From contig JASLYC010000084.1 of NCBI GenBank assembly GCA_030739975.1, forward strand, positions 1-64,000: a DNA stretch of 64,000 bases, given 5' to 3'. Made by a program: the position numbers and the translations under genes. This DNA is from Gammaproteobacteria bacterium. GTDB lineage: Bacteria; Pseudomonadota; Gammaproteobacteria; PS1; Pseudothioglobaceae. Positions within the stretch are counted from its first letter, which is position 1, and every line of letters begins with the position of its first letter. The notes beneath the pieces are model-generated. The model was not told where the DNA came from. It did no database searches and saw only the letters and a list, made by a program, of their open reading frames with translations. Below, in pieces: positions 4,703 to 48,390 of this stretch.

Positions 4703-4704
4703 TT

Positions 4705-5909: not shown

Positions 5910-5936
5910 TTTGCTGTTATAGTTTAATTATATGAA

Positions 5937-6917: not shown

Positions 6918-6926
6918 GAGAAATTT

Positions 6927-9290: not shown

Positions 9291-9291
9291 C

Positions 9292-10623: not shown

Positions 10624-10638
10624 AGCTATTAGGTACAT

Positions 10639-11853: not shown

Positions 11854-11878
11854 TGTGCTAACAAAAAAAATTTATTAA

Positions 11879-12868: not shown

Positions 12869-12879
12869 CTTGCTTGCAA

Positions 12880-13290: not shown

Positions 13291-13335
13291 TGAATTGTAG
13301 TTGATAAATAAAATTAATTAATAAAAAATATTTTA

Positions 13336-14178: not shown

Positions 14179-14193
14179 ATTTATTATTTTAAA

Positions 14194-14994: not shown

Positions 14995-15034
14995 AATTAA
15001 TTAAAGTAGCATTAGAAAATAAAATTTTATCACA

Positions 15035-16081
15035 CTATTGTTTAGTACTAAACTCATGCACACTGTCTACTAGGTCTTTCATTCTTTCCGGATTAACATC
15101 AGGAGAAATGCCATGGCCCAAGTTAAATACATGGCCAGTATTGTCACTGTATTGCGAAAGAATCTTTTTGACTTCTTCACGAATTGTGTCCCTAGAAGCG
15201 TATAAAACACAAGGGTCTAAGTTGCCTTGTAATGCGACCTTGTCTCCTACTCTAGTCTGTGCATCACCTAACTCTACTGTCCAGTCTAGTCCAATCGCAT
15301 CGCATCCGCTTAAAGCTATCTGTTCCAGCCACATACCTCCTCCCTTAGTAAATAAAGTTATCGGTATTATTTTTCCATCATGATGACGATTGACTCCTTT
15401 AACTATTTTCTCCATATACCTGAGAGAATAGTCTTCATAACTATCTTTATTAAGAAGTCCTCCCCATGTATCAAAAACCATAACAGAATCTACCCCAGCT
15501 TCAATTTGACCATTTAAGTAATCAATAATAGTGTCTGCAAGCTTATCAAGTAACTTATGCATATGGCTAGGGTTCTCGTACATTAGACCCTTAACTTTTG
15601 AAAAATTTTTGCTAGAACCGCCCTCAACCATGTATGTTGCTAATGTCCAAGGGCTGCCTGTAAATCCAATCAAGGGAACCCTTCCATTCAAAGATTTCTT
15701 AATTAGCGAAACAGCATCTGTCACATAAGAAAGCTCTGAGCCGATATCGGGCTTTACTAGCCCATCTATGTCGGCTAATCTTCTAATAGGTTTAGAAAAT
15801 TTAGGGCCCTCTCCTTCTGTGAAATAAAGACCCAAATCCATCGCATCGGGAATAGTCAGTATATCTGAGAACAATATTGCAGCATCTAGATCAAAACGCT
15901 CAATAGGCTGCAATGTTACTTCGCAAGCCATATCTGGAGATTTGCAAAGGGTTAGAAAATCGCCCGCCTTTTTACGAGTAGCGCGATATTCTGGAAGATA
16001 ACGCCCTGCCTGCCTCATTACCCAAATTGGCGTCCTTGATACTGGCTTTTTTAATAGTGCGTTTATATAGTCAAAAGACAT
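15035..16081 (-). CDS. hemE: Uroporphyrinogen decarboxylase
   Basis: [49 protein letters not shown]. Confidence 0.97.
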
Positions 16082-16193
16082 AATAGTGAAATATTTTAGT
16101 GATTAAATGATTATATAGATAATTGTTAAGATAGCTAATATTTATATGTTTTTATAATTCTCTGCTTATCTTTTGTGTAATATTATTAAACAT

Positions 16194-16214
16194 AAAAAAA
16201 GCCACATAAGTGGC
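16194..16214 (-). terminator. Rho-independent terminator downstream of rpmE
   Basis: On the minus strand: GCCACTTATGTGGC followed by TTTTTTT. Confidence 0.8.
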
Positions 16215-16237
16215 TTCTTTAATACTTCTAGGTTGGC

Positions 16238-16450
16238 TTATCTCTTAAATGAACCATAACGTGACTTAAATTTTTCAACACGTCCTGCAGTGTCCATAAT
16301 TTTTTGTTTGCCGGTGTAAAAAGGGTGGCAGCTAGAACACACGTCTAAATGTAGCTCGTCTTGTTTTTTTGTTGAACGGGTTTCAAAAGAATTGCCACAA
16401 CTACATACAACTTTAATCATATCGTAGTCTGGATGAATTTCTGTTTTCAT
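16238..16450 (-). CDS. rpmE: 50S ribosomal protein bL31
   Basis: [27 protein letters not shown]...[13 protein letters not shown]; Cys-containing type. Confidence 0.97.
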
Positions 16451-16609
16451 ATCACTATATATATTGTAATCTTGTAAGGGGGTAGATTATATACTAAGTG
16501 TCGCTTTCAAGGCAAGACTTTTAGCCTAATTTAAGTCATAAACAGAGCAAATAAACAAAGATGATATTGTTAACATAATCGCTCTCATTTTAATTGTTAT
16601 TAATTGCCA

Positions 16610-16639
16610 TTGACAAGTGATAGGTATAATAGCTATATA
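16610..16639 (+). promoter_or_regulatory. Putative sigma70 promoter upstream of glmU
   Basis: TTGACA - 18 nt - TATATA, about 60 nt upstream of the glmU start. Confidence 0.4.
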
Positions 16640-16700
16640 GAAAAAAACATCTTTAGCACTCCGTTTATTATTTAATGAATTCATCAATAATATATTTTTT

Positions 16701-18062
16701 ATGACAGATATTCAAGGCATTATTTTGGCAGCTGGCAAAGGCACTAGAATGTATTCAAACATACCTAAAGTTCTGCATACCGTTTCAGACAAAACCTTGC
16801 TAGAGCATGTATTAAATAAGGCCCATAAAGTATGTAATAAAATTCATGTAGTGTATGGATTTAAGGGTGAACAAGTAAAAAGTTCGATTGAAGATAGATC
16901 CGTTAATTGGGTTGAGCAACGGGAACAACTAGGGACTGGACACGCTGTATCTCAAGTTGTTCCTCAAATAGACAATGAGTCAATATCTTTAATTATGTAT
17001 GCAGATATACCTTTAATTAAAGAGTCGACACTAGATAAGTTAATTAAAGAGGCTGATAAGTTTGGCATATCACTTTTATCAACCAAACTAGAGAGTCCAG
17101 ACGGATATGGCCGCATTATTCGTAAGGATGGAGAAATAAAATCCATAATCGAACACAAAGATGCCACCAAGGAGCAATTAATCATTAAGGAAATAAACAC
17201 TGGTTTTATTGCAATTAAGAGTAAGCTATTAAAAAAATATTTAACAAAAATTGACACAAGCAACAAACAAAATGAGTTCTATCTTACTGACATCATTGCA
17301 TCTGCGGTCGATGATGGTAGAATTGTCGGTTCAATAATTACTAAGGACAAGTTTGAAGTGGCTGGGGTTAATGACAAAGTACAACTAGCAGAACTTGAAA
17401 GAGATTTTCAGAAAAATCAAGCACTGGAATTTATGCGCCAAGGTCTAACCATTAAAGACCCTTCACGTTTCGATTGCAGAGGTAAACTCAAGTTTGGACA
17501 GGACTGCACTATTGATATCAATGTTTTGATAGAAGGAGAAGTATATATAGGTGATAACTCCTCTATATCCCCCAACTGTATTATAAAAAACTCTAGCATT
17601 GGAAAGAATGTCTCTGTATTGCCAAATACCGTTATTGAAAATGCAGTAGTGGGTGACAACGCTAGTATAGGGCCATTTGCAAGGATACGTCCACAAACCA
17701 AAATAGGCAATAATACCAAGGTCGGAAACTTTGTTGAAATAAAAAAATCTAGCATCGAAGAAGGCTCAAAGATTTCACACTTAAGTTACATTGGTGATAC
17801 GTCGGTTGGACGCAATGTTAATATTGGTGCAGGAGTAATTACTTGTAATTATGACGGCTCTAACAAGCATAAAACTGATATAAGAGATGGCTCCTTTGTT
17901 GGCTCTAACTCTCAATTGATTGCGCCTGTGGTAATTGGAGAGAATGCCACTATCGGTGCTGGCTCAACAATTACTAGTGACGCACCTAATGACGCTTTAA
18001 CTTTGACAAGAACAAAGCAGTCTACCTTCAAAAAATGGCGTCGCCCTAAAAAAAATAAGTAA
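16701..18062 (+). CDS. glmU: Bifunctional UDP-GlcNAc pyrophosphorylase / glucosamine-1-phosphate acetyltransferase
   Basis: LAAGKGTRMYSNIPKVLH, hexapeptide repeats, GAGVITCNYDGSNKHKTDI. Confidence 0.97.
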   Translation: MTDIQGIILAAGKGTRMYSNIPKVLHTVSDKTLLEHVLNKAHKVCNKIHVVYGFKGEQVKSSIEDRSVNWVEQREQLGTGHAVSQVVPQIDNESISLIMYADIPLIKESTLDKLIKEADKFGISLLSTKLESPDGYGRIIRKDGEIKSIIEHKDATKEQLIIKEINTGFIAIKSKLLKKYLTKIDTSNKQNEFYLTDIIASAVDDGRIVGSIITKDKFEVAGVNDKVQLAELERDFQKNQALEFMRQGLTIKDPSRFDCRGKLKFGQDCTIDINVLIEGEVYIGDNSSISPNCIIKNSSIGKNVSVLPNTVIENAVVGDNASIGPFARIRPQTKIGNNTKVGNFVEIKKSSIEEGSKISHLSYIGDTSVGRNVNIGAGVITCNYDGSNKHKTDIRDGSFVGSNSQLIAPVVIGENATIGAGSTITSDAPNDALTLTRTKQSTFKKWRRPKKNK

Positions 18063-18064
18063 TA

Positions 18065-19234
18065 ATGTTTAGACTCCCCCGTAATGTTTGGATTTTAGCC
18101 TTAAGCTCGTCGCTATTTATGTCTCTTAGCGTATTTATTATTTTTATAGGCGGCATAATAGGTCAATCAATTAGCCCAATAAAGAGTCTATCGACATTGC
18201 CAGTAGCAATGATAGTTATTGGTACAGCTGTTAGTATATTCCCTATAAACTACATTATGTCTAAGATTGGAAGAAGGTACACATTTCTTTCTGTTTGTGT
18301 ATTTACAATAATAAATGCCATATTAGCGGTCACATCTTTATATTTGCAGTCATTTAATCTGTTCTGCTTTTCAACATTTCTCTTTGGTGCTACTGTTGCC
18401 ACAATGCAACAATTCCGATTCGCAGCAATTGAAAGTGTAAACAAAGATCAGATCACATCAGCAACCTCTTTAGTTTTACTTGCAGGACTTATATCTGCCT
18501 ATCTTGGTCCAGAAATAGCAACTAATGGCAAAAACTTATTTGAAGTCCAATTTGTAGGTTCATTTGTATTGCTTGCAATTTGCTTTGTTGTAGCCTTTGT
18601 ATTGCTTAGCCTTTTTAAGCCGGCAAAGAAACTAGCGTTGCCAAAAGATAATTCAAAAAGAAAACTAATAGAGATAATAAAACAGCCTACTTTTATTGTA
18701 GCGATGTCTAGTGCAGCGTCTGGTTATGTAATTATGTCTTATGTTATGACTGCAACCCCAATAAGCATGCATAGCATGGATGGATTTTCTTTAGAACAAA
18801 CTAAGTTTGTTATTCAGAGTCATGTCATTGCAATGTTTTTACCGTCTTTATTTACCCCAATGATTGTTAAATTATTGGGCCTTAATAGAATGTTGATTAT
18901 TGGTATTTTGTTATATTTTGTGTGTGTAGCTATAGCATTATTAGATCATCTATTAATCAACTACTGGGTTTCACTTGTATTGTTGGGACTAGGGTGGAAT
19001 TTTTTGTATATTGGCGGTACAGCATTATTACCCAGTTCATACGAAGAAAATGAAAAATTCAAAGTCCAAACTGTTAATGATTTTTCAATTTTTGGTTTTC
19101 AGGCTTTTGCCTCTCTATCGGCAGGATGGTTTGTATTCAATTATGGGTGGGAGTCAGTACTATACTCTGTAGTGCCCATAATATTGATTCAGTTTTTTAT
19201 TCTTTTATGGTGGCTCAAACACAAAAAAACTTAA
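18065..19234 (+). CDS. MFS transporter
   Basis: About 12 TM segments, IGRRYTF loop motif. Confidence 0.8.
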   Translation: MFRLPRNVWILALSSSLFMSLSVFIIFIGGIIGQSISPIKSLSTLPVAMIVIGTAVSIFPINYIMSKIGRRYTFLSVCVFTIINAILAVTSLYLQSFNLFCFSTFLFGATVATMQQFRFAAIESVNKDQITSATSLVLLAGLISAYLGPEIATNGKNLFEVQFVGSFVLLAICFVVAFVLLSLFKPAKKLALPKDNSKRKLIEIIKQPTFIVAMSSAASGYVIMSYVMTATPISMHSMDGFSLEQTKFVIQSHVIAMFLPSLFTPMIVKLLGLNRMLIIGILLYFVCVAIALLDHLLINYWVSLVLLGLGWNFLYIGGTALLPSSYEENEKFKVQTVNDFSIFGFQAFASLSAGWFVFNYGWESVLYSVVPIILIQFFILLWWLKHKKT

Positions 19235-19274
19235 CGATTTAATTTTGTCAATAACTATCGATTTAAAAAAATAA

Positions 19275-20363
19275 TCAGTAAAGGTATTCTCTATAAACTC
19301 TTTTAGTAATTTTTGTAAATATTTCATAGGATATAGTGTCGGCGCAGCGAGCTACATCATTAATTGAAACATTCTCTCCAAACAGTTCGGCAATATCATT
19401 GATTTTAGTTCCAGGAATATTTGTCAGGTCTATCGTAAGCATGTCCATTGAAACTCTACCAACAATATGAGTGATGCTACCATTTATATATACAGGGGTT
19501 CCGGTAATTGCATGTCTGGGATAGCCATCTCCATAACCAAAAGCTACCACTCCAACTGTCATGTCCTTTGGACAAATAAATGTGCCTCCATAACCGATAT
19601 TGTCGCCCTTGTTGTAATTTTTTATAGAAATAATTGGAGCTGTAACAATCATTGTTGTCAATAAATTTTGGTCGTGCTGGTTGTAGTCAATTGGTGATGC
19701 CCCATAAAGCATAATGCCTGGACGAATAAAGTCTTGAGAAGGATACACCTTAGTTAATACGCCAGCAGAATTTGAAATTGACAGTTTGAATTTATATTTT
19801 TTTTTCAGTGCATTATATATTGAGCTTATTTTATGCATTTGTCTGTCGGTAACCATGTTTCCAACTTCGTCTGCACAAGCAAAATGGGTCATTAGCACAA
19901 TTTCTTTTACATTTTTACTAGAAGAAAGCTTTTCAAATGCATCAACAATCGTATCATCTTGAAATCCTAGCCTCCCCATTCCAGAGTCATACTTTAAAAA
20001 CACTGTCAATGGCTCAGAGTAATCTTTATTGAGTATCCAATTTAAGCCTTTATTAGAATTAACACAGATTAAAAAGTTATTTTTGTTGGCGTAATCAATC
20101 TCATCAAACTCAAAAACACCTTCCAACAAGAGTATCGGGCTTTTTACTCCAGATTGGCGAATTTCTATCGCCTCTTCTATGCAAGCAACACCAAACAAAT
20201 CTACCTCGCTATCCAAATAACTTGCAACTTTTATCGCGTTATGGCCATACGCATTAGCTTTCACAATTGCAACTGCCTGTGCGCCTGGTACACAAGATTT
20301 TGCGTACAAATAGTTATGCTTAATTGCTGCTAAATTAATCCTAGCAACTGTATTCCTACTCAT
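19275..20363 (-). CDS. alr: Alanine racemase
   Basis: PLP-Lys motif AIVKANAYGHNA; YDSGMGRLGF; RPGIMLYGASP; GRVSMDM. Confidence 0.95.
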   Translation of the reverse strand: MSRNTVARINLAAIKHNYLYAKSCVPGAQAVAIVKANAYGHNAIKVASYLDSEVDLFGVACIEEAIEIRQSGVKSPILLLEGVFEFDEIDYANKNNFLICVNSNKGLNWILNKDYSEPLTVFLKYDSGMGRLGFQDDTIVDAFEKLSSSKNVKEIVLMTHFACADEVGNMVTDRQMHKISSIYNALKKKYKFKLSISNSAGVLTKVYPSQDFIRPGIMLYGASPIDYNQHDQNLLTTMIVTAPIISIKNYNKGDNIGYGGTFICPKDMTVGVVAFGYGDGYPRHAITGTPVYINGSITHIVGRVSMDMLTIDLTNIPGTKINDIAELFGENVSINDVARCADTISYEIFTKITKRVYREYLY

Positions 20364-21619
20364 TACTGATAGCGCTCTATACCTAAACCGTCAAGGTCAA
20401 CCTGTGTATTATCGCCAGAAATAATTAACGATATCAACTTTCCAGAGCCTAACCCCATTGTCCAACCTAAGGTACCGTGTCCAGTATTCAAGAAGAGGTT
20501 CCTATATTGTGTTTTTCCTATAATAGGAGTTCCATCAGGTGTCATTGGACGCAATCCAGCCCAAAACTCATTGTCCGTTGTTTCTTTGGTAGCCTTAGGA
20601 AAAATGTTATTAATGACAAAGGTAGTTATCTCTTCTCCTTTATTTGATAGGCTCTTGTCGTAGCCAGTTAACTCTGCAATCCCTGCAACCCTGACCTTGT
20701 CTCCTAGCCTGGTAATTGCTACCTTGTAAGTTTCATCCACCAAAGAGCCCTGCGGCGCATCCAGATCCTCTTTAACAGGCAAAGTAATTGAATAACCTTT
20801 GACAGGATAGATAGGTAACAAGACCCCTAAAGGCTTCAATACCGATGACGAATCACACCCCAAAGCAACCACATAATTGTCAGCCATATATTCGCCATTA
20901 CTAGTCTCTATAGATGACACATTGCCATCTATAGTGTTAATTTTATTTATTTCAACTCCGTATTCAAAATTCACGCCTAGAGTTTTACACTTCTCAACCA
21001 GTTTGTTGACAAACATAAAACAATTTGCGCTCTGGTCCTCTATTAAACGCAAACCTCCCTTAATTTTATTTTTTACATGCCTTAGACCTGGCTCAGCTTT
21101 AACACAACCTTCTGCATCTAGTACTTCATATTTAACACCATATTTTTCATAAATGGCTATGTCCTTTTTACATTCAGCTAGCTGCTTATTTGTCCTAAAA
21201 ATTTGGAGCACTCCGTTATTTCTTAACTCAAAATCAAAATCATTCTCATTGATAAATTCCGCGACAGTTTTTTTTGAGAAAGAAGAAACACGCATCATTC
21301 TAGATTTATTTGTAATATACCTATTGGTTGTGCAGTTTCTTAGAATGCTAATAATGAACTTTATAGTTATAAATGACAACCTAGGATTAACAATAAGTGG
21401 TGCATACTTACTAAACATCCATCTTATTGCTTTATATGGAACTCCGGGAGCTGCCCAGGGTGATGACATAGCATAAGATAGCTGACCGGCATTGGCATGG
21501 CTTGTTCCCATAGCTGCACCATCTTCACGATCAATCACAGTTACATCATAGCCAGCTTTAGCCAAATAATAGGCAGAGCTTACTCCAATTATTCCACTTC
21601 CCGCTACTAGTACTTTCAT
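20363..21619 (-). CDS. dadA: D-amino acid dehydrogenase, FAD-dependent
   Basis: VLVAGSGIIGVSSAYYLAKAGYDVTVIDR; C-terminal GLRPMTPDGTPIIG and NTGHGTLGWTMGLGSGK; abuts alr with TAATG. Confidence 0.92.
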   Translation of the reverse strand: MKVLVAGSGIIGVSSAYYLAKAGYDVTVIDREDGAAMGTSHANAGQLSYAMSSPWAAPGVPYKAIRWMFSKYAPLIVNPRLSFITIKFIISILRNCTTNRYITNKSRMMRVSSFSKKTVAEFINENDFDFELRNNGVLQIFRTNKQLAECKKDIAIYEKYGVKYEVLDAEGCVKAEPGLRHVKNKIKGGLRLIEDQSANCFMFVNKLVEKCKTLGVNFEYGVEINKINTIDGNVSSIETSNGEYMADNYVVALGCDSSSVLKPLGVLLPIYPVKGYSITLPVKEDLDAPQGSLVDETYKVAITRLGDKVRVAGIAELTGYDKSLSNKGEEITTFVINNIFPKATKETTDNEFWAGLRPMTPDGTPIIGKTQYRNLFLNTGHGTLGWTMGLGSGKLISLIISGDNTQVDLDGLGIERYQ

Positions 21620-21808
21620 AACTTCTTTGCTTTAATAAAATGTAGGCAAGCATTTTATTATCTTTATCAATAAAAATGCAAAATTCAGTATAAATGAATA
21701 ATTGTTACAAAATATGATATTTAGTTACAAACAAAGTATATTACACATTAAGCTTTACAATGCCACTATTATCTTCGTCTTGTAACATACGCAATACAGA
21801 GTACCAAA

Positions 21809-22540
21809 ATGCTAATTAACTCAAATTATCAAATAAACAAGCTGGACATACCAAATGATGGATGCTCTGTTATACCTAAAGTGGGCATGATAATTCTAGA
21901 TACTGACCTTACTTGTGAGCGAGATTTCGCTCGCCTTAAGGTTGAGCGTAATTCTAATTTCGACCTCTACTACAACCGTGTAGCTTTCAAAAACCCTATG
22001 ACGGTTGAAAGTTTAAGGGAAATATTAACCAAACTCCCTGTAGCCGCAGATGCAATATTGCCAGGAATTGAGCTTGATGCCTTGATATTTAATTGCACCT
22101 CTTCGTCAGCCCTTCTAGGAGATGAAACTGTAATTAATGCTATACCATCAAAGGCAGCCCATACATTTACTACCGCATCTGCAGTGGTTGCAGAAATGAA
22201 AAAAGCCGATGCCAAAAATATAAGCATGCTTTGCCCTTATCCAGAAAGTGTAAGCATTGGTTTAGCAGACTATTTTTGTTCATGTGGGCTAAATGTTACC
22301 TCTCTTACATATTTAGATATTCAAGACGACAGAGATGTTGCAAATATCAGTGCTGAGCAAATAATCAGTTCAGCCCTCAAAGCTCTCGAACCTAGCTCAG
22401 ACTCTTTGTTTATTTCTTGCACAGCTTTAAGGTCTGCAGAACTGGTAAATACATTAGTTACAAAAACTAAGAAAAAAATATTTACCAGCAATTATTCTAC
22501 CTTTAGACACCTAGAGTCAGTCATAGGTCAAAACCGATAG
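21809..22540 (+). CDS. Asp/Glu racemase / arylmalonate decarboxylase / maleate isomerase superfamily protein
   Basis: Two-Cys layout (FNCTSSSALLGDE and FISCTALRS), typical of the superfamily. Confidence 0.75.
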   Translation: MLINSNYQINKLDIPNDGCSVIPKVGMIILDTDLTCERDFARLKVERNSNFDLYYNRVAFKNPMTVESLREILTKLPVAADAILPGIELDALIFNCTSSSALLGDETVINAIPSKAAHTFTTASAVVAEMKKADAKNISMLCPYPESVSIGLADYFCSCGLNVTSLTYLDIQDDRDVANISAEQIISSALKALEPSSDSLFISCTALRSAELVNTLVTKTKKKIFTSNYSTFRHLESVIGQNR

Positions 22541-22548
22541 GTCTATCT

Positions 22549-23442
22549 GTGGGTTATATTTTTTCCATTATAGCCATAGCATTATGGGCATTTAATTTTA
22601 TTATTGCTGTTATTGCAAACAGTCATATATCGGCAATAGAGCTTTCATTTTATCGCTGGCTGGTGGCATTTATAATTCTCTTGCCCTGGATAGTTAAGCT
22701 GGCCCCTAAAAAGAAATTAATAATATCTAATTCCAAGTATATTATTTTGCCAGCAATTTTTGGTGTTGCAATATTTAACACTGCTCTGTACTTAGCTGCA
22801 AACTATAACTCATCATTTAATCTTTCTCTTATAGCTATAAGTGCCCCTATTGTGGTAATTGCTATAAACCGATTTGTTTTTAATATTGTTTACTCTAGAG
22901 CCTTATGGTTTGGAGTTTTAGTTGCTACTATTGGAGTTATGGTTTTAATTAGTAGAGGCGATATAAATGCTCTTACTAAAATGAATTTCTCAATTGGCGA
23001 CCTATTGATGTTTGTTGCAGCTACGTCTTGGGGTATTTATACCGCAACACTTGAACACAAGCAGCCCAGAGAATTTACTCAGATAGAGTTTTTAGCTCTT
23101 ATAACTACAATCGGTCTGTTAATACTTATTCCGGTATTTTATTGGCAGGTTAAAAGCTATGGTTTTAGTCAATACAGCTCTGATAACATGGCTATGATTT
23201 TGTATTTAGGAATATTCCCGTCCGTAATCTCTTTTTACAGTTGGAACAAGTCAATTGAGAAAATTGGAGCAACCAAAACTGGAGCAACCTACTACTTTAT
23301 CCCGGTTTTCGTGTTTATATATAGTAGTATTTTTTTGGATGAAAAGATAACCTATACCGAAATGCTAAGTTTTTTACTCATATTTTCAGGACTACTGACA
23401 ATAAATTTTACTAGAAGTAATCAACCAACTAGTGCTCACTAA
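22549..23442 (+). CDS. EamA/DMT family permease (GTG start)
   Basis: About 10 TM, duplicated EamA fold; WALNF-like N-terminus. Confidence 0.88.
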   Translation: MGYIFSIIAIALWAFNFIIAVIANSHISAIELSFYRWLVAFIILLPWIVKLAPKKKLIISNSKYIILPAIFGVAIFNTALYLAANYNSSFNLSLIAISAPIVVIAINRFVFNIVYSRALWFGVLVATIGVMVLISRGDINALTKMNFSIGDLLMFVAATSWGIYTATLEHKQPREFTQIEFLALITTIGLLILIPVFYWQVKSYGFSQYSSDNMAMILYLGIFPSVISFYSWNKSIEKIGATKTGATYYFIPVFVFIYSSIFLDEKITYTEMLSFLLIFSGLLTINFTRSNQPTSAH

Positions 23443-25589: not shown

Positions 25590-27128
25590 GTGTCAGCCAA
25601 AAGAAACAGAAGAAATGGTGGAAGATTGGCAAAAATTGCTCATAGAAAAAAAACATCTCAGATGGAGGCGCCTAATTTTTTAACGCGCGACATACCTTGC
25701 TATGAATTACTAAATGAAGAAGAATTGGTTCGTATTGAGGATCACGCAGACTGGATTCTTCAAGAGGTAGGTATAGAATTTTGGGATGACAAAGAGTCTT
25801 TAAAACTATTTAAAGATGCTGGAGCAACAGTCAAAGGAAATAGAATCCGTTTTGACAAAGGGCACGCTTTAGAGCTATGTAAAACTGCTCCTAGAGAATT
25901 TGAAATGCACGCAAGAAACCCTAAAAGGTCGACAATTTTTGGAGGTAACAGACTAATTTTCGGCCCAGCATATGGTTCCCCTTTTGTTTACGATTTAAAG
26001 AATGGCAGAAGGCCAGGTACTATGAATGACTTTAATAATCTTATTAAACTTGCGCATATGACTCCTTGGCTTCACCATACAAGTGGCACTGTTTGTGAGC
26101 CTGTAGATATACCTGTTAACAAGAGGCATTTAGATATGGTATATGCACATCTTAAGTATTCTGATAAACCATTTATGGGGGGTGTTACTGCTCCTGAAAG
26201 AGCTGAAGATTCTATTGAAATGGCTAGAATAGTATTTGGTAAAGAGTTTTTGAAATCAAATTGCGTCATTCAGGGGAATATTAACGTTAATTCACCCCTA
26301 GTTTATGACAACACTATGTCTGAAGCTCTTAAAACATACGCTAGAGCAAATCAGGGGGTTGTAATTACGCCTTTCATTCTTGGAGGGGCAATGTCTCCAG
26401 TTACAATGCCTGCAGCGGTTGCCCAGGCGCATGCTGAAACTATGATTGGTGTTGCATTAACACAATTAATAAGCCCAGGATCCAGCGCTGTATATGGTAA
26501 TTTTTTAACTACAATGGATCTTAAGACTGGTGCACCAACATTTGGCACTCCAGAATCTTCATTAGCTACTCTTGCAGTTGGGCAGATGGCAAGAAGATTA
26601 GGGCTACCGTTTAGAGCTGGAGGTCATTACACAGCCTCTAAGGTGGCTGACGCACAATCAATGCAGGAGTCTGCTGATTCAATGTTTCCAGCATTCTTGG
26701 CGGGCGCTAACTTTGTCCACCAAGCGGCAGGTTGGCTTGAGGGTGGGTTAGTGGTTGGTTACGAGAAATTTATTCTTGATTCTGAACGTCTCGGGATACT
26801 TCACCGTATGGGATTAGGCATGAATATCGATGAAAAAACTTTAGCCTTTAGTGCTTATCGTGAAAATTTACCTGGAGAAAACTTTTTAGGGACAAAGCAT
26901 ACTGCTGAAAACTTTGAGAATGCAAACTTTAGATGTGAATTGGCTGATAATAATTCTTTTGAGCAGTGGGAAGAGGACGGTTCAAAAAATGCTGAGCAAA
27001 GAGCATATGAACGCTGGAATCAGATGCTTGAGGAGTACGTTGAACCGCACTTAGACGAATCAATAGATGAAGAGTTGATTGGCTTTATTACCAAAAAGAA
27101 AGAGAGTATGGTAGACGAATGGTATTAA
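25590..27128 (+). CDS. Trimethylamine/quaternary-amine methyltransferase (MttB/MtgB superfamily), non-pyrrolysine
   Basis: SAKRNRRNGGR N-terminus, GGHYTASKVADAQ, LAGANFVHQAAGWLEGG; no in-frame TAG. Proposed GTG start at 25590 with GGAGA at 25578 (ORF track starts at 25548). Confidence 0.88.
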   Translation: MSAKRNRRNGGRLAKIAHRKKTSQMEAPNFLTRDIPCYELLNEEELVRIEDHADWILQEVGIEFWDDKESLKLFKDAGATVKGNRIRFDKGHALELCKTAPREFEMHARNPKRSTIFGGNRLIFGPAYGSPFVYDLKNGRRPGTMNDFNNLIKLAHMTPWLHHTSGTVCEPVDIPVNKRHLDMVYAHLKYSDKPFMGGVTAPERAEDSIEMARIVFGKEFLKSNCVIQGNINVNSPLVYDNTMSEALKTYARANQGVVITPFILGGAMSPVTMPAAVAQAHAETMIGVALTQLISPGSSAVYGNFLTTMDLKTGAPTFGTPESSLATLAVGQMARRLGLPFRAGGHYTASKVADAQSMQESADSMFPAFLAGANFVHQAAGWLEGGLVVGYEKFILDSERLGILHRMGLGMNIDEKTLAFSAYRENLPGENFLGTKHTAENFENANFRCELADNNSFEQWEEDGSKNAEQRAYERWNQMLEEYVEPHLDESIDEELIGFITKKKESMVDEWY

Positions 27129-28615
27129 ACTTTATCTCCAACCGCACGACTTAAGCCATCAGGTTTAGGCAGCTTTTTATGTGCGCTATAAATGCCTTCC
27201 ATTCTATTTATTACTAAATCACTAGGCATACTAGCTCCACGTGTTTTTAAGTCAACATGAATCAGCATGTGTTCCGCAGTAGCTAATAACCTTCCGTCAT
27301 CGTGATGGAGCCAGTGAAAAAGATGTAGTTTTTTATTTTTGCCATAAATGACCTGAGTTTTAGAATATATACTCTCTCCAATTAGAACTTCATCTAGATG
27401 CTGAATATGGGTTTCAACAGTAAAGTAAGACCCTACATTGGCGATATATTCTTTGTCAACACCAATAATTGCCATCAGCTCTGTAGTTGACTCTGAGAAG
27501 CATTCAAGGTACCTAGACTCTGTCATATGACCGTTGTAATCAGCCCACTCTTTAGGGATATGAGTTGAAAAGGTAACTATTGGTTGAGATACATCCAACT
27601 CTGAAAACTCAACTTTACTATTTGAGTTAGACAAAGCAGCATCGAATTCTTTCAGAGCATTTCCAGCACCCCATCTATTCTCTTTTAAAACTTTTAAAAA
27701 ATCAACCAGATTATCGTCACGTTTTTGCATCAGCTCGTCAATACTAAATTGACCTGATTGTTGATCAGACTGGCTAGAAACCTTATCTATTAACTCATCT
27801 GTGAATTCAGGAACATCCATCAAGTGTGTCCATGGCCATTCAAGACAGGGTCCAAACTGAGAAATAAAATGACGCATACCGGCGTCACCACCTGCTAGCC
27901 TATACGTTTCAAATAGTCCCATTTGTGCCCATCGAAGACCAAAACCGTAACGAATAGCATCATCAATTTCTTCAGTTGTAGCCACATCATCATTCACAAG
28001 CCATAAAGCTTCTCTCCAAACCGACTCAAGAAGTCTATCAGCAATGAATGCAGGTATTTCTTTTTTTATATGAAGCGGAAACATTCCAATATTAGTAATA
28101 ATATTACAGGTTTCGTTGATTACACCTTTAGATGTTTCTTTGCCTCCAACTATTTCAACTAGAGGTAAAAGATAGACTGGATTAAATGGGTGAGCAACAA
28201 CTAACCTCTCTGGATGCATCATTTCTGACTGTAAGTCTGAAGGAAGGATTCCTGAGGTTGACGAAGTAATAATTAAATCTTTTGAAGCAGTTGATTCAAT
28301 CTCATCATAAACAGATTGTTTTACTGATAGCCTTTCTGGGACGGCTTCAATGATTAATTCTGAAGATTTTGCAACATCAGAAACTGAGGATGAAAATGAA
28401 AGTCTACCTTTTTTTGGTAGAGAAGATTTGAGTAAATTTTTGTATGCCCTTTCTGCATTTCGAATAACTTTTCCAATATTATTTTGTGCGCCTTTTGAAG
28501 GTTCAAAGACAAAAACATCAATTCCATTGAGTAGTAGTCGGGCAATCCATCCACTCCCAATAACGCCCGCTCCTATAACGCCTGCAGACTTAATATTTTT
28601 CATGCTTATCCCCAA
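27125..28615 (-). CDS. L-carnitine dehydrogenase fused to C-terminal hotdog thioesterase (betainyl-CoA thioesterase type); start may be 28603
   Basis: 3-hydroxyacyl-CoA-DH-like NAD domain (VIGAGVIGSGWIARLLLNG, HPFNPVYLLPLVEIVGG) plus C-terminal DYNGHMTESRYLECFSESTTELM. Confidence 0.9.
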   Translation of the reverse strand: MGISMKNIKSAGVIGAGVIGSGWIARLLLNGIDVFVFEPSKGAQNNIGKVIRNAERAYKNLLKSSLPKKGRLSFSSSVSDVAKSSELIIEAVPERLSVKQSVYDEIESTASKDLIITSSTSGILPSDLQSEMMHPERLVVAHPFNPVYLLPLVEIVGGKETSKGVINETCNIITNIGMFPLHIKKEIPAFIADRLLESVWREALWLVNDDVATTEEIDDAIRYGFGLRWAQMGLFETYRLAGGDAGMRHFISQFGPCLEWPWTHLMDVPEFTDELIDKVSSQSDQQSGQFSIDELMQKRDDNLVDFLKVLKENRWGAGNALKEFDAALSNSNSKVEFSELDVSQPIVTFSTHIPKEWADYNGHMTESRYLECFSESTTELMAIIGVDKEYIANVGSYFTVETHIQHLDEVLIGESIYSKTQVIYGKNKKLHLFHWLHHDDGRLLATAEHMLIHVDLKTRGASMPSDLVINRMEGIYSAHKKLPKPDGLSRAVGDKV

Positions 28616-29517
28616 CGCTTCTCTAGCTTCAATTTCTCACGAGCCTGCTGTGGGCCAAGAATTGTGCATCCCATGCCTTCAGCAGTTTGAGCTGCTTTTT
28701 TAACAAGATCACCGTTTGTAGCAAGAACACCACGTTTGAGATAAATGTTATCTTCTAGTCCTACACGAATATTGCCTCCAGCAAGAATCGACATTGCCAC
28801 AAAAGGTAATTGGTTTCTGCCAATTGAGAAGGCTGAGAAGACCCAGCCTTTAGGAATACTGGATGTCATTGCTAAGAATGTATGCATATCATCTGGAGCA
28901 CCCCAAGGAATTCCCATGCATAATTGTATCATTGCTGGGTCGTCAATTAGGCCTTGGCTTTTTAACCAGATTGCGAGTTGTAAATGTCCAGTATCGAAGC
29001 ACTCTATCTCTGGCCTTACGCCAAGCTCTTGAACCTGTTTAGCCATCTCACACAAGACTGAAGGGGTATTGGCCATTACGTAATCACCTTCTCCAAAATT
29101 CATTGTCCCACAATCAATGGTACATATTTCAGGGAGTATGTTTCGAACGTGATTAAGCCTTTCAGATGCTCCAACCATATCTGTTCTATTTTCATTAAGT
29201 GGTAGTGGTTTTTCAGAAGAACCAAATACAAGGTCACCACCCATGCCTGCAGTAAGGTTAATAATCATATCAACATTTGATTCACGAATGATATCAACAA
29301 CTTCGCCATAGAGTGCAGGGTCACGAGCTGGAGCTCCTGTTTCTGGATTACGAACATGGATATGCACTATTGCCGCTCCAGCTTGTGCAGCTTCAATACA
29401 AGAATCTGCTATTTGCTGAGGCGTAACAGGGACCTTGTCGGACCTGCCTGTTGTATTTCCTGAGCCAGTAACTGCACAGGTAATAAAGACTTCTCTTGAT
29501 GGTTGTAGGCCAATCAT
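28606..29517 (-). CDS. BKACE (beta-keto acid cleavage enzyme) family protein, probable dehydrocarnitine cleavage enzyme
   Basis: VFITCAVTGSGNTTGRSDKVPVTPQQIADSCIEAAQAGAAIVHIHVR; MNFGEGDYVMANTP; NIRVGLEDNIY. Confidence 0.9.
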   Translation of the reverse strand: MIGLQPSREVFITCAVTGSGNTTGRSDKVPVTPQQIADSCIEAAQAGAAIVHIHVRNPETGAPARDPALYGEVVDIIRESNVDMIINLTAGMGGDLVFGSSEKPLPLNENRTDMVGASERLNHVRNILPEICTIDCGTMNFGEGDYVMANTPSVLCEMAKQVQELGVRPEIECFDTGHLQLAIWLKSQGLIDDPAMIQLCMGIPWGAPDDMHTFLAMTSSIPKGWVFSAFSIGRNQLPFVAMSILAGGNIRVGLEDNIYLKRGVLATNGDLVKKAAQTAEGMGCTILGPQQAREKLKLEKRWG

Positions 29518-29644: not shown

Positions 29645-30628
29645 GTGAGCATATTCTTAAGGACAGAGGCAACACTCAGGGCAACAATACTAGTTCTGCC
29701 AGAATCATCTATGTTAGTACTTGCATCCCTGATTGACCCAATGAGAGCCGCAAATAGACTTTCTAAAGGCAGTCATTTTATCTGGAACATTGTAACAATA
29801 GATGGTTTACCAGTTACATGTACTTGCGGTATTGAAATTAAACCAGACGGAAAATTTAGAGAGACTAAATCAGGAAATTTATTTTTTATTGTTTCTGGAT
29901 TTAATCAATTTAAATATATTAATAACAAGGGGTTTAGTCTATTGAGGAGCCTTGCTTTAGATTTTGATGCAATGGGCGGTGTAGATACTGGGGCATGGAT
30001 TTTAGGTAGAGCCGGTCTTTTGGATGAAAAATATGCAACCACCCACTGGGAAGATCTTGAAGACTTTGGTGACTATTTTAGAAAAACCAATGTACAGCCA
30101 GACCGTTTTGTCATTGATGGAAATGTGATTACGGTTGGTGGCGCATCTCCAACATTTGACTTTATGTTACACTTGATTAGATCAAGGCTGGGTTACCCTT
30201 TAGCTTTAGAGGTTGCAAGTGTTTTTATTTATGACGAGACACATTTCGCAAACGATGCACAGCCGCTTGTATCGTTGGGATTATTAAATGATTTTGAGCC
30301 ACGTGTAAGTAAGGCAATACGTATCATGGAGTCTAGCCTTGATGAGCCAATAATAGTCAGCGAAATTGCAAAAAAACTTTCAATTTCTAGTCGCAGACTA
30401 GAAAATCTTTTTCGACAACACTTACAAACATCGCCAGGTTTTTACTACTTAAACTTGAGACTTCAGAGGGCAAGAAAATATGTTACTGACACGCTTTTAC
30501 CTATGCAAGAGATAGCTATAAGGACAGGCTTTAATAGCCTGTCGGCATTCTCAAGATCGTTTAAAAATAGCTACCAAAGCACTCCAAGTGCTTACCGTCA
30601 AAAAATGTCCAAAGCTGGGCTTAATTAA
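29645..30628 (+). CDS. GATase1-like/AraC-family transcriptional regulator (CdhR/GlxA-like)
   Basis: DJ-1/PfpI-like N-domain plus C-terminal HTH_18 (LSISSRRLENLFRQHLQTSPGFYYLNLRLQRAR); divergent from the BKACE-carnitine dehydrogenase genes; GTG start. Confidence 0.88.
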   Translation: MSIFLRTEATLRATILVLPESSMLVLASLIDPMRAANRLSKGSHFIWNIVTIDGLPVTCTCGIEIKPDGKFRETKSGNLFFIVSGFNQFKYINNKGFSLLRSLALDFDAMGGVDTGAWILGRAGLLDEKYATTHWEDLEDFGDYFRKTNVQPDRFVIDGNVITVGGASPTFDFMLHLIRSRLGYPLALEVASVFIYDETHFANDAQPLVSLGLLNDFEPRVSKAIRIMESSLDEPIIVSEIAKKLSISSRRLENLFRQHLQTSPGFYYLNLRLQRARKYVTDTLLPMQEIAIRTGFNSLSAFSRSFKNSYQSTPSAYRQKMSKAGLN

Positions 30629-30727: not shown

Positions 30728-33145
30728 ATGAGAGATAATGCAAGGGTTGTGGTTATTGGGGGCGGTGTTGTCGGCTGTTCAATTCTATTTCACCTCGCTA
30801 AGATGGGTTGGAAAGACGTCGTTTTACTTGAAAGGAATGAACTAACTTCTGGGTCAAGCTGGCATGCTGCCGGTTCATTTCATACAGTGAGTTCTGACCC
30901 TAATGTTTCAAAACTTCAAGATTACACAATCAGCCTTTATAAAGAAATTGAAGAAACCTCTGGCCATTCAATCAGTATGCACAAAACAGGAGGATATTAC
31001 TTAGCCTCAAATCAGAATTGGCATGACTACCTAAAGCGAGAACGCTCTAATGCAAGGTCACTAGGCTTGAATCAAGAGTTTGTGTCTCTAGAAGAAGTTG
31101 TCGATAAGCATCCATTGATCAACCCTGATCATTACGTTGCCGCTCTTTGGGACCCATCTGATGGCGATATTGATCCTTCAGGAGTTGTTTACGCATATGC
31201 AAAATCGGCTCGTGTACATGGGGCTAAGTTTTATACTCATACTCCAGTCATTGAAACCAACCAAAGGTCTGATGGTTCTTGGGATGTTGTTACTGAGAAA
31301 GGCAATATTCATGCAGAACATATTGTAAATGCTGGTGGCCTTTGGGCTCGTGAACTTGGCCGAATGTCTGGGATTCATTTGCCTGTAGTTCCTATGGAAC
31401 ACCACTATTTAATTACTGAAGAAATTGAACAAATTGCTAGTTTGGATGAAGGTCAACGTTTACCAAGTTGTATCGACTTTGAAGCGAATATTTATACTCG
31501 TCAAGAGAATACTGGTATGTTATTGGGAACGTATGAGCCTCAATCTACACCGTGGTCATTGGACGGCACTCCACAAACTTTTGGGCATGACCTGCTTGAG
31601 CCAGATTTGGATCGTATTGCTGATCGATTAGAGTTAGCTTTTGAACGTATTCCTGCGCTAGGAACAGTCGGTATTAAAAATATTATTAATGGGCCATTTG
31701 TTTTTTCCCCTGATGGAAATCCAATGGTTGGGCCTGTTCCAGGTATGAAGAATTACTGGACAGCTGTTGGTGTTATGGCGGGTTTTTGTCAAGCAGGTGG
31801 TGTCGGAAAAACATTAGCAGAATGGATGATTGAGGGTGAGCCCTCTGTGGATGTTTGGGCAATGGATATTGCGCGTTTTGGTGATTTTGCCACCCCTGAT
31901 TGGGGGGTTATTAAGTCTTCTGAAAACTATGAGCGTCGCTTTGTAATGACCTTTCCTAATGAAACACTGCCTAAAGGTAGGCTTCAGAAAACAACATCTA
32001 TTTATGATCGTTTAACCCAAATAGGTGCAGTCTGGCAAGATTCTTTTGGTCTTGAAAATGCACTTTGGTTTGCTAACTCACCGGAGGATGCTTATGAAGA
32101 ACCAACATTCCACAGATCAAGGTCGCATGATTACGTAGCCAAAGAGGTAAAAGCTGTTCGCGAATCAGTTGGTGCAATGGAGATTGCGAACTTTGCTAAC
32201 CATAAATTTACTGGCAAAGGTGCTAGAGCTTTCTTAGGGGGTATTCTTGCAGGGCACATTCCAAATCAGGGGCGAGTTAATTTATCCCCCATGCTATTAG
32301 AAAGTGGAAAATTATATGGTGATTTAACGGTGTCCTGTATTGATGAAGAAACTTACTATTTGTTTGGCTCAAGTGTCGCACAAAATATGCATCTTCGTTG
32401 GTTTGAAAAACAACTAGAAGGCATTGAGGATGTAGAATATAGAAACATGACAGATGACATTCATGGAATTTCAATATCGGGTCCAAATTCTAGAGAGCTA
32501 TTATCTAGGCTAACTCGAGAAGATGTCAGTTCTAAAGCTTTCAATTTTCGCGATATTAAAAACACATTTATAGGTAGCGTTCCAGCACTATGTATAAGAA
32601 TCTCATTTACGGGTGAGCTTGGTTATGAAATATATGTTGCGCCTCAATACCAATTAAAACTTTTTAAAGAGATTCAGGAGGCTGGAAAAGACCTTGGTTT
32701 AAAGTGGTTTGGCGGAAGAGCATTAATGTCAATGAGGCTAGAGAAAAGTTGGGGAGCCTGGACAATGGATTTTAGGCCTGACTTTACTCTAATAGAGTCA
32801 GGGCTTGATTTTTTTGTGGATTGGAGCAAAGACTTTATCGGTAAAAATGCGGCTTTAAAAGAAAAGAAAGATGGTGTAGGTAAACGTCTATCGGTTATAG
32901 AGATTGAAACTGAAACTGATGTTAGTGGTGATGAAGCTGTTATGTATGATGGTAAATGTGTCTCATACATAACATCTGGTGGCTATGGACACTCAGTTGG
33001 AAAATCTCTTGCAATGACTTACCTTCCAGTGGGACTAATAAAAGAGAGTGCTGAACTTGAGGTAGAAATATTGGGTGTATTTCATAAAGCAAATGTCGTC
33101 TTAAAGCCATTATATGACCCTAGTGGCTCTAGAATGCGTTCATAG
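30728..33145 (+). CDS. FAD-dependent oxidoreductase with C-terminal GcvT-like aminomethyltransferase domain (dimethylglycine/sarcosine dehydrogenase family)
   Basis: VVVIGGGVVGCSILFHLAKMG, SGSSWHAAGSFHT (covalent-flavin His context), C-terminal GcvT fold (FTGELGYEIYVAP). Confidence 0.9.
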   Translation: MRDNARVVVIGGGVVGCSILFHLAKMGWKDVVLLERNELTSGSSWHAAGSFHTVSSDPNVSKLQDYTISLYKEIEETSGHSISMHKTGGYYLASNQNWHDYLKRERSNARSLGLNQEFVSLEEVVDKHPLINPDHYVAALWDPSDGDIDPSGVVYAYAKSARVHGAKFYTHTPVIETNQRSDGSWDVVTEKGNIHAEHIVNAGGLWARELGRMSGIHLPVVPMEHHYLITEEIEQIASLDEGQRLPSCIDFEANIYTRQENTGMLLGTYEPQSTPWSLDGTPQTFGHDLLEPDLDRIADRLELAFERIPALGTVGIKNIINGPFVFSPDGNPMVGPVPGMKNYWTAVGVMAGFCQAGGVGKTLAEWMIEGEPSVDVWAMDIARFGDFATPDWGVIKSSENYERRFVMTFPNETLPKGRLQKTTSIYDRLTQIGAVWQDSFGLENALWFANSPEDAYEEPTFHRSRSHDYVAKEVKAVRESVGAMEIANFANHKFTGKGARAFLGGILAGHIPNQGRVNLSPMLLESGKLYGDLTVSCIDEETYYLFGSSVAQNMHLRWFEKQLEGIEDVEYRNMTDDIHGISISGPNSRELLSRLTREDVSSKAFNFRDIKNTFIGSVPALCIRISFTGELGYEIYVAPQYQLKLFKEIQEAGKDLGLKWFGGRALMSMRLEKSWGAWTMDFRPDFTLIESGLDFFVDWSKDFIGKNAALKEKKDGVGKRLSVIEIETETDVSGDEAVMYDGKCVSYITSGGYGHSVGKSLAMTYLPVGLIKESAELEVEILGVFHKANVVLKPLYDPSGSRMRS

Positions 33146-33160: not shown

Positions 33161-34477
33161 ATGAGCTTTACTAGTAACACAAGATATAAAAATAAAATTG
33201 GCTCCCGTATAGAAGTTATAGAAGATATCTATTCGCTTAATAAGCATGCCCTTGGACCAGGCGCACTAGCGGAGTCAGAATGGTCTGCTGCTGGCTTGCC
33301 TGAGCCAGATATGGGGCAAATTCGAAAATATCGACTCAAAAGAGTTCGTGAAAAGCTAGTCGAATTTGACTGCGCAGGAATCCTACTTTATGACCCACTA
33401 AATATTCGTTATGCTACAGACAGTACTAATATGTCTTTGTGGACTTCTCATAACGCTGCCAGGTATGCTCTCGTTATGACCGAAGGACCAGTTATTATTT
33501 TTGAGTTCGATGCTCACGAATTTCTTTCAAATCATAACCCATTAATTACTGAAGTACGTCGTGCAATGACTTATCTTTACTTTACAGCGGGAGAAAAAAG
33601 TAAAGCTAAAGCTAGAATTTGGGCTTCTGAAATTGCTGATATAGTTAGAGAGCATGGCAATGGTAATAAACGCTTAGCATTAGATCATTGTGCTCTAGAA
33701 GGAGTTAAAGAGCTTAAGTATCTTGGTCTAGAACTCGCTAATGGCGAAGAAGTTATGGAGCTTGCGAGACTAATAAAGTCAGATGAAGAAATTATTGCTA
33801 TGAGGCGCTCTATTTTTGCATGTGAAAGATCAATCGAGTTGATGCGCAATTATTTTAAGCCTGGCATTACAGAGCAAGATCTTTGGAGTCGTTTTCAAAT
33901 GGAGGCTGTCTCTAGAGGGGCTGAGTGGATTGAAACCAGGCTTCTTGCCTCTGGACCAAGAGCAAATCCATGGTATCAAGAGTGCTCATCACGTCCAATA
34001 CAAAGCGGTGAGCTTATGGGTTTTGATACTGATTTAGTTGGTTCTTATGGTTATTGCACTGACATGTCTCGCACATGGTTATGTGGAGATGTCAAGCCAA
34101 CCAATGAACAAAAAGAAATCTATACCATGGGCTATAACCAAATACAAGCCAATATAGAATCATTACAGCCAGGACTAACCTTTAAAGAGCTAACACTTAA
34201 TGCTATGGAGTATCCCAAAAATGATTTTCGTCATTACTCAGTTCATTACCATGGAGTGGGGCTTTGTGATGAATTTCCTGCGATACCATTTAGTTGGGAG
34301 TTAAATGAGAACAGTTTTGATGGTGTTTTGAAGCCTGGGATGGTAATGTGTGTCGAGACATATGTTGGTCGCTATAGTGGTGGTCCAGGTGTTAAGCTTG
34401 AGGAACAAGTTTTAATAACTAATAATGGTTATGAGCTCTTGACGAACTATCCATTTGAATCAGACCTATTACTTTAA
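33161..34477 (+). CDS. M24-family protein resembling DMSP lyase DddP
   Basis: DPLNIRYATDSTNMSLW, GAEWIETRLLASGPRANPWYQEC, GFDTDLVGSYGYCTDMSRTW, YSVHYHGVGLCDEFP; recalled DddP metal ligands and catalytic Tyr/Asp positions appear present. Confidence 0.82.
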   Translation: MSFTSNTRYKNKIGSRIEVIEDIYSLNKHALGPGALAESEWSAAGLPEPDMGQIRKYRLKRVREKLVEFDCAGILLYDPLNIRYATDSTNMSLWTSHNAARYALVMTEGPVIIFEFDAHEFLSNHNPLITEVRRAMTYLYFTAGEKSKAKARIWASEIADIVREHGNGNKRLALDHCALEGVKELKYLGLELANGEEVMELARLIKSDEEIIAMRRSIFACERSIELMRNYFKPGITEQDLWSRFQMEAVSRGAEWIETRLLASGPRANPWYQECSSRPIQSGELMGFDTDLVGSYGYCTDMSRTWLCGDVKPTNEQKEIYTMGYNQIQANIESLQPGLTFKELTLNAMEYPKNDFRHYSVHYHGVGLCDEFPAIPFSWELNENSFDGVLKPGMVMCVETYVGRYSGGPGVKLEEQVLITNNGYELLTNYPFESDLLL

Positions 34478-47181: not shown

Positions 47182-48390
47182 CTAGCCCTTAATAATGTTA
47201 TTCTCTGGGCCGAAGGGGAACTCAGTAATGTCATAAGCGCTATCTTCTGTAATTACCATAACATCATGTTCACGGTAACCCCCGGCACCAGGTTGCCCCT
47301 CTGGAATCATAATCATTGGCTCCATAGAAACTACCATGTTTTTTTCAAGTACAGTGTCAATATCTTCTCTTAGTTCAACTCCTGCCTCTCTACCATAGTA
47401 GTGAGATAGGACTCCAAATGAATGCCCATAACCAAAGGTGCGACTTTTAAGTAGGCCATATTCTTCAAAGATCTTATTTAGTTCAAGAGCAATATCTTTG
47501 CACGCTACACCTGGTTTAATTAGTTTCATTCCTTCCTCGTGAACTTTAACATTTATTTCCCAAAGCCTTAATGACTCTTCATCGACGTGATCGAAAAATA
47601 GCGTTCTTTCAAGTGCAACATAATAACCAGCAATCATTGAGAAACAGTTGAGGCTTAGAATGTCACCCTTGCCAACTTTTCTTGTAGTAACAGGATTATG
47701 AGCGCCGTCGGTATTAATTCCAGACTGAAACCAGGTCCAAGTATCCATCAGCTCCGAGTGAGGGTATCTCTTTGCAATCTCTCTAACCATTGCTTGAGTC
47801 GAATGAAGTGCCACTTCATGCTCTGGAGCACCCTCTTTGATAGCTTCAACCAATGCTGCACCACCTATGTCGCAAACATTGGCGCCCTGTATAATGTGGG
47901 CAATTTCTTCATCAGATTTAATCGAACGCATTTTCATACAATCTATTGATATATCAACAAATTCAGCACTTTCAAATGCATTTTTTAGCTTATCTAGACG
48001 CTCCTTTGTTATATGGTCGTGCTCAATACCGATCCTGCCTTTATTTTGTACTAGTTGCTGTAATGCATAAAAGAAACTATCTTTTTGCCAGTCAGTATAA
48101 ACAAGATTTTCACCAAAGGTGCGACGCCAAGGTTGCCCGCCATCAATATTTGCAGACACTGTTGTAGCCTTATTATGAGTAATTACTAAGGCATATGGGC
48201 GGCCAAATGAGCAATAAAGAAAATCACTGTAATAGTTTATCCCATGAATTGATGTAAAAATTACCGCATCAATATTATTTTTTGCCATGTGCTTTCTTAA
48301 GCATGATTGACGGTTTTTATATTCCAAATCACTAAATGTGTGGACAATATTCTCACCGTTAGGAATAAATTTTGTTCTTGGCATATTCAT
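47182..48390 (-). CDS. Creatinase (creatine amidinohydrolase), M24 fold
   Basis: Near collinear with Pseudomonas creatinase from memory: NYYSDFLYCSFGRPYALV, SANIDGGQPWRRT, FQSGINTDGAHNPVTTRKV, FGYGHSFGVLSHYYGREAGVELREDIDTVLE. Confidence 0.92.
   Translation of the reverse strand: MNMPRTKFIPNGENIVHTFSDLEYKNRQSCLRKHMAKNNIDAVIFTSIHGINYYSDFLYCSFGRPYALVITHNKATTVSANIDGGQPWRRTFGENLVYTDWQKDSFFYALQQLVQNKGRIGIEHDHITKERLDKLKNAFESAEFVDISIDCMKMRSIKSDEEIAHIIQGANVCDIGGAALVEAIKEGAPEHEVALHSTQAMVREIAKRYPHSELMDTWTWFQSGINTDGAHNPVTTRKVGKGDILSLNCFSMIAGYYVALERTLFFDHVDEESLRLWEINVKVHEEGMKLIKPGVACKDIALELNKIFEEYGLLKSRTFGYGHSFGVLSHYYGREAGVELREDIDTVLEKNMVVSMEPMIMIPEGQPGAGGYREHDVMVITEDSAYDITEFPFGPENNIIKG

Follow-up and report, generated by a model that had tools for sequence, protein, structure and literature searches.

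Analysis of a 64,000-nucleotide stretch of DNA (the window) revealed a gene encoding a DddP-type M24 metalloenzyme (the M24 protein) whose branch is sister to the DMSP lyases; the protein has an intact active site and its gene lies in a conserved block with genes encoding an MttB-superfamily methyltransferase and a DMGDH-type flavoprotein (Table 1). With a probability of about 0.5, this protein is a DddP-type onium-carboxylate lyase that has a nitrogen betaine as its substrate and functions within a cobalamin-dependent demethylation route. It deserves more interest as a member of the DddP-type subfamily that does not serve DMSP than as one more DMSP lyase.

Table 1. Features of the locus around the DddP-type M24 gene in the window.
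Feature	Position	Strand	Evidence
MttB-superfamily (MtgB-like) cobalamin-dependent methyltransferase, non-pyrrolysine, 526 aa	25548..27128	+	PF06253, 711 bits
L-carnitine 3-dehydrogenase fused to thioesterase; outside conserved block	27125..28615	-	NCBIfam NF005716, 713 bits (cut-off 592)
BKACE beta-keto acid cleavage enzyme (likely 3-dehydrocarnitine); outside conserved block	28606..29517	-	PF05853
GlxA/GbdR-like AraC-family regulator	29645..30628	+	NCBIfam GbdR, 220 bits (under cut-off of 480)
DMGDH-type flavoprotein, 805 aa, FAD domain, FAO_M and GcvT folate domains	30728..33145	+	Pfam DAO, FAO_M, GCV_T, GCV_T_C
DddP-type M24 metalloenzyme, 438 aa	33161..34477	+	sequence searches, alignment; AlphaFold model nearest DddP structures
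MDR-superfamily reductase, quinone/enoyl-reductase-like, 358 aa	34483..35559	+	motifs GINNTD, GADCYGE
Aldehyde dehydrogenase, downstream; kept beside block in L026 and L027	36254..37702	+	profile searches, locus comparison
M19 dipeptidase-family protein, downstream; kept in L026 and L027	37702..38688	+	Pfam, locus comparison

The open reading frame of the M24 gene has an ATG start and no internal stop codons, and Pfam searches detected Peptidase_M24 and Creatinase_N in its product. In phmmer searches against the PDB the DddP structures 4rzy and 4b28 ranked first (E-values of about 1e-116 to 1e-112), more than 90 orders of magnitude ahead of the second-ranked family, the Xaa-Pro dipeptidases (1e-19), and identities over the aligned part were 45% to the DddP of R. 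lacuscaerulensis (RlDddP) and 43% to that of R. denitrificans (RdDddP). The resemblance to DddP, which the preliminary description had read from the blocks DPLNIRYATDSTNMSLW, GAEWIETRLLASGPRANPWYQEC and GFDTDLVGSYGYCTDMSRTW, is far beyond chance, and all three blocks are present in the protein. An AlphaFold model made with 22 homologues as input (pLDDT 85, pTM 0.85, with low confidence in segment 91-97 around W94) shares with DddP the pita-bread M24 fold and the N-terminal domain; in a fold search of the PDB four DddP entries ranked first (TM 0.88-0.89), followed by prolidases (TM about 0.66), creatinase and ectoine hydrolase.

Two M24 enzymes, creatinase and the ectoine hydrolase DoeA, open C-N bonds and have roles in the catabolism of osmolytes or N-methyl compounds; the sarcosine made by creatinase is a substrate of DMGDH-like oxidases. 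The M24 protein might accordingly be a hydrolase of the creatinase, ectoine hydrolase or prolidase type that splits a conjugate to free dimethylglycine, sarcosine, N-methylproline or a similar N-methylated amino acid for demethylation by DMGDH, as the M24 fold, the appearance of creatinase and DoeA in the fold search, the DMGDH gene as immediate neighbour and the nearby M19 dipeptidase-family gene would allow. We regard this as unlikely, since the closest relatives by fold are the DddP structures (E-values of 1e-49 versus 1e-24 for M24 hydrolases; identities of 40-42% versus 15-24% for the nearest hydrolases), the identity to creatinase and DoeA is 16-18% with differing active-site residues, D370 and D291, the latter being the sixth metal ligand, are typical of DddP rather than of hydrolases, and RlDddP lacks Val-Pro peptidase activity (PMC5395565).

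Regarding the active site, all nine metal-ligand and catalytic residues of DddP, the roles of which were taken from PMC4108388 and PMC5395565, are present in the M24 protein according to the alignment. The six metal ligands D289, D291, D301, H364, E399 and E414 correspond to D295, D297, D307, H371, E406 and E421 of RlDddP, and the residues of DMSP binding and proton abstraction are represented by W94 (W95 in RlDddP), Y359 (Y366) and D370 (D377). The Tyr/His/Asp spacing given for YSVHYHGVGLCDE in the preliminary description is right, Y359, H364 and D370 aligning with Y366, H371 and D377, but it does not discriminate DddP, being present in every neighbouring branch. The complete signature W-DDD-Y-H-D-E-E was found in 39 of 39 rows of the DddP clade, 10 of 10 of a clade around Mesorhizobium, 7 of 7 Rieske-linked rows and 19 of the 20 rows of the M24 protein's own clade, the remaining row containing undetermined residues; in some deeper branches glycine occupies the D377 position (11 of 98 rows) and F or Y the W95 position. 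Because the nine residues are equally complete in the sister and Rieske-linked branches, the signature does not diagnose DMSP cleavage, and the residue match was rejected as proof of DMSP activity (the residues do not DISCRIMINATE). Positions that separate the clades, given as RlDddP versus window side in RlDddP numbering, include H333/Q, G282/S, A103/Y and F155/W, the last two being Y102 and W154 in the M24 protein. An aromatic residue beside H364 (Y363) was also considered as a marker of nitrogen betaines and discarded; it is frequent in two betaine-linked clades, yet occurs in 11 of 39 DddP rows.

For phylogenetic placement, 167 DddP-like genes were sampled, the sources being named contigs, plasmids and genomes that had been drawn evenly; 20 of the 369 Gammaproteobacteria genomes and 41 of the 399 Pseudomonadota genomes had such genes, the window's own genome being counted in both. 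Maximum-likelihood trees were made with 99 rows and, with bootstrap, with 79 rows, functional fungal DddPs not being among the rows. The DddP clade, comprising roseobacter DddP, Oceanimonas, Pseudomonas and others, had support of 100/100, and the M24 protein was placed outside it in a clade of 20 rows (99/97) together with members from Chloroflexi, Acidimicrobiia and Denitromonas. A third clade is formed by Mesorhizobium, Aminobacter, Ahrensia and relatives, and the tree does not settle the branching order among the three. Constraining the window group into the DddP clade was rejected (AU p 3.3e-8), a p-value that is optimistic because the tested group was picked after the tree was seen. On the NCBIfam DddP model NF043017, which has a curated cut-off of 600 bits, the M24 protein scored 471 bits; six members of the DddP clade scored 610-850 bits, the one Mesorhizobium protein scored reached 481, those of Acidimicrobiia, Denitromonas and an Anaerolineae relative 472, 515 and 502, and Rieske-linked proteins 362-441, so that among the members scored the cut-off agrees with the split between the DddP clade and its sister branches. 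The preliminary description had named placement outside the functional DddP clade together with loss of catalytic residues as evidence against its proposal: the former was found, while the catalytic residues are retained.

The placement and the score both argue against the M24 protein being a working DMSP (or DMSOP) lyase, that is, a divergent DddP making DMS and acrylate, the proximity of DMGDH then reflecting general osmolyte catabolism. No AcuI for acrylate scored above the cut-off in the 87%-complete host genome, where the top match was the neighbouring MDR (labelled 'Zn-alcohol dehydrogenase'; 59 bits against a cut-off of 440), which has quinone/enoyl-reductase-like motifs and was rejected as AcuI on this score; and the conserved partners of the M24 gene, including those in Mesorhizobium and Acidimicrobiia, act on N-methyl compounds. 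DMSP cleavage nevertheless has in its favour that the DddP catalytic and metal residues are intact, that DddP is by far the nearest structural family and that the host meets DMSP, given a DmdA-like DMSP demethylase above the cut-off (contig C38:562-1653; 418.6 bits versus 410). In addition, the DddP of Fusarium graminearum, only 32% identical to RdDddP and thus more distant from it than the M24 protein is, was reported to enable E. coli to cleave DMSP (PMC4108388). Taken on both sides, a DMSP lyase is improbable. Where the preliminary description had left the substrate as DMSP or an analogous onium compound, a betaine is the better supported alternative, the partners being genes of betaine demethylation rather than of DMSP metabolism, and the reading as a DMSP lyase has partial support.

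Regarding the gene neighbourhood, the DMGDH gene lies on the same strand 15 bp upstream of the M24 gene and is its conserved partner; the best PDB matches of its product are mitochondrial DMGDH (E-value 1e-175). The gene order in sister clades is MttB-family, DMGDH and DddP-like M24, and this block was found in SUP05 relatives, in Mesorhizobium, Aminobacter, Ahrensia and Afifellaceae, and in the Acidimicrobiia loci L085 and L094. The MttB gene is directly upstream of DMGDH in L027 and L149; the window alone has carnitine and regulator genes between them, and apart from these genes has MttB next to the DMGDH gene. Of the carnitine/DMGDH locus seen in the preliminary description, the DMGDH part stands, and a carnitine dehydrogenase-thioesterase, BKACE and a GbdR-like regulator are indeed nearby, but the link to carnitine is confined to this locus: in the relatives G001 and L027 the MttB-DMGDH-M24 block is kept and carnitine genes are missing, so that these were rejected as a conserved partner.

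Neighbours were counted within 5.5 kb and only at loci with enough upstream sequence. DMGDH, MttB and Rieske genes were present at 8, 8 and 0 of nine loci in the SUP05/window clade, 43, 43 and 0 of 47 in the Mesorhizobium clade, 2, 4 and 0 of 12 in the remainder of the window's 20-row clade, 1, 2 and 4 of 30 in the deep and Rieske branches, and 3, 1 and 3 of 36 in the DddP clade, counts which are not independent events because many loci are close relatives. On the tree, seven changes of the DMGDH neighbourhood are needed by parsimony. Among evenly drawn genomes, a DMGDH with at least 40% identity to that of the window was within 5 kb of 6 of 66 DddP-like genes, as compared with 1.16 expected from the DMGDH copy number and size of each genome (p 0.001); by genus, 5 were observed versus 1.13 expected (p 0.006). 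The M24 gene and the orthologues of DMGDH (84-90% identical) and of the MDR occur together in the same five of 25 family genomes, which belong to two genera, and none of them in the other 20. It is thus very unlikely that the neighbourhood is a loose catabolic island in which nothing connects the M24 gene functionally with DMGDH or MttB; DMGDH copies are common genome-wide (up to 14 per genome) and the nearby carnitine genes vary among close relatives, but the adjacency exceeds the per-genome expectation, is almost universal in two clades and recurs in Actinobacteria, and the co-occurrence of M24, DMGDH and MDR in the 25 related genomes is without exception. Outside the window's own genera and the SUP05 group, some other DMGDH can be nearer to that of the window than the one adjoining the M24 gene, and the idea that the M24-linked DMGDH is always the nearest orthologue was not upheld there.

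The MDR, which lacks the catalytic-zinc motifs of alcohol dehydrogenases, is conserved as a partner only in SUP05 relatives and in Paracoccus yeei, where a 61%-identical relative is directly upstream of an annotated dddP. On plasmid pTT13-1 of P. yeei (L105:6718-10396) this dddP (850 bits) lies between the MDR relative and a gene for a cis-3-hydroxyproline-dehydratase-like MR/MLE protein. An MR/MLE gene is also near the DddP-like gene in the SUP05 loci L023, L025 and L030; as a clue to proline-type betaines this neighbour is suggestive only. In the locus L034 and other Mesorhizobium loci, a gene for a homocysteine methyltransferase (BHMT/MtgE-like, 568 bits), kept in most loci, is downstream of the block, together with genes for a phosphonate-binding-type substrate-binding protein and a fatty-acid-desaturase-like protein. 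Genome G597 has two copies of the DddP clade (L172 and L157), one of them without the block; the other (796 bits) is near DMGDH (63-64% identical to that of the window), MttB and a GlxA-type regulator, which indicates that the betaine link occurs inside the DddP clade too.

Distant DddP-like genes of Rhizobium and Paraburkholderia are clustered with a Rieske oxygenase nearest to Stc2/GbcA and with its reductase, the Rhizobium clusters additionally holding a hydroxyproline epimerase and betaine ABC transporters, while the broader surroundings of the Oceanimonas, Denitromonas and Pseudomonas members include genes for a Rieske protein and a BCCT transporter. The window locus resembles the rhizobial stachydrine/hydroxyproline-betaine clusters (Stc2-type), in which a DddP-type M24 gene with the full signature is part of the operon (L108, L169, L171); these clusters differ in having a Rieske oxygenase instead of MttB and DMGDH, and their M24 proteins are about 43-44% identical to that of the window.

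The host genome (1.5 Mb, 95 contigs) has a single copy of the M24 gene. The 25 genomes of the family are small (0.9-1.7 Mb), and the close relatives, with 82-85% identical protein, are MAGs labelled as SUP05 cluster, Thiotrichales, Woeseiaceae or Gammaproteobacteria, which points to a marine gammaproteobacterium of the SUP05/Thioglobaceae type as the probable host. On contig C72 (positions 4000-23000, L188), genes encoding MtgC-like B12-binding, DUF1638, MetF-like, pterin-binding MtgD-like, RACo/RamA-like and MttB/MtgB-like proteins and a separate DMGDH were detected, a set that by sequence matches the aerobic cobalamin pathway of glycine betaine (PMC12478193) and provides the corrinoid machinery on which an MttB enzyme depends. 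Demethylation of glycine betaine by MtgBCD was demonstrated aerobically in Ruegeria pomeroyi, SUP05 and Hyphomicrobiales were reported to have MtgBCD homologues, and it was suggested that additional copies of MttB serve other methylated compounds (PMC12478193); a word search of that paper found no mention of an M24 enzyme. The window has in common with that system an MttB-superfamily enzyme and a DMGDH-type step, with mtgC, mtgD, metF and ramA-like genes elsewhere in the host. Its MttB belongs to a non-pyrrolysine family whose superfamily includes MtgB, is 48% identical to the MttB/MtgB-like protein beside the mtgC/mtgD-like genes of C72, and the nearest solved relatives of the SUP05 block MttB include glycine betaine methyltransferase. 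As a difference, the block of the window is a second MttB/DMGDH set: since C72 has its own mtg-like set and DMGDH, the genes of the window are additional and could share the corrinoid core of C72. The L-serine ammonia-lyase and GcvP genes further down the window are consistent with the same C1 route.

A lyase acting on a nitrogen betaine would, by analogy with RlDddP, hold the carboxylate of the substrate at its two-metal centre and the onium head by W94 and Y359, while D370 would abstract the proton next to the carboxylate, so that the beta-linked onium group would leave by beta-elimination and an unsaturated acid would remain. Judging from motif and position, the zinc-less MDR could reduce this product; the functions of the neighbours suggest that a corrinoid protein would receive a methyl group from the MttB-family enzyme and that DMGDH would oxidise further N-methyl groups onto folate, an order of steps which we infer. 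Candidate substrates are betaines, such as beta-alanine betaine, that carry the onium group in the position beta to a carboxylate, and neighbours in some clades hint at proline-type betaines. Several points count against the lyase reading: the glycine betaine route via MttB and DMGDH needs no lyase, which leaves the lyase step without an obvious place; the functional yet divergent DddP of F. graminearum suggests that DMSP activity may be old and common to the whole family; the chemistry is read from residues that partly vary in deeper branches; and, as noted above, the MDR has a narrow distribution as a partner and the M24-linked DMGDH is not the nearest one everywhere. No activity reports for the branch of the M24 protein were found in the literature searched, and the search gave nothing useful on homarine operons.

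For the DddP-type family as a whole, we tentatively suggest, with more doubt than confidence, that its members originally broke C-N bonds in the catabolism of nitrogen betaines, in partnership with cobalamin-dependent (MttB) or Rieske demethylation in different phyla, and that DMSP cleavage in roseobacters is a derived or side activity. If this is true, many of the 'dddP' genes counted in the environment, a large share of the total, would not represent DMS production, and it would help to explain the Km of 14-17 mM of roseobacter DddP, the millimolar Km being an open puzzle (PMC5395565). The MttB-DMGDH-M24 block suggests an unassigned step in the aerobic cobalamin betaine route, which was described in 2025. 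As the Mesorhizobium-type proteins of this analysis, outside the DddP clade and below the cut-off, are found in betaine-demethylation operons, surveys that use profiles and count such genes as DMSP lyases may put the potential for DMS production too high. The substrate of the M24 protein is probably a betaine, and for now its gene should not be counted among those that produce DMS; being in a separate clade with its own clade residues, below the curated cut-off and linked to MttB and DMGDH, it differs from the proteins of the clade above the cut-off, for which the name 'DddP' should be kept for the present.

A SUP05-family genome (G020) has a second, deeply divergent DddP-like paralogue with 34% identity (L145, C23:94046-95182). 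The window also encodes a second M24 protein (47182-48390, minus strand) that is not of the DddP type, with PepQ-like and DoeA-like scores of 93 and 74 bits, far below the cut-offs; its gene adjoins those for an EamA transporter, a choline-dehydrogenase-like GMC oxidoreductase and a DUF1989 protein.
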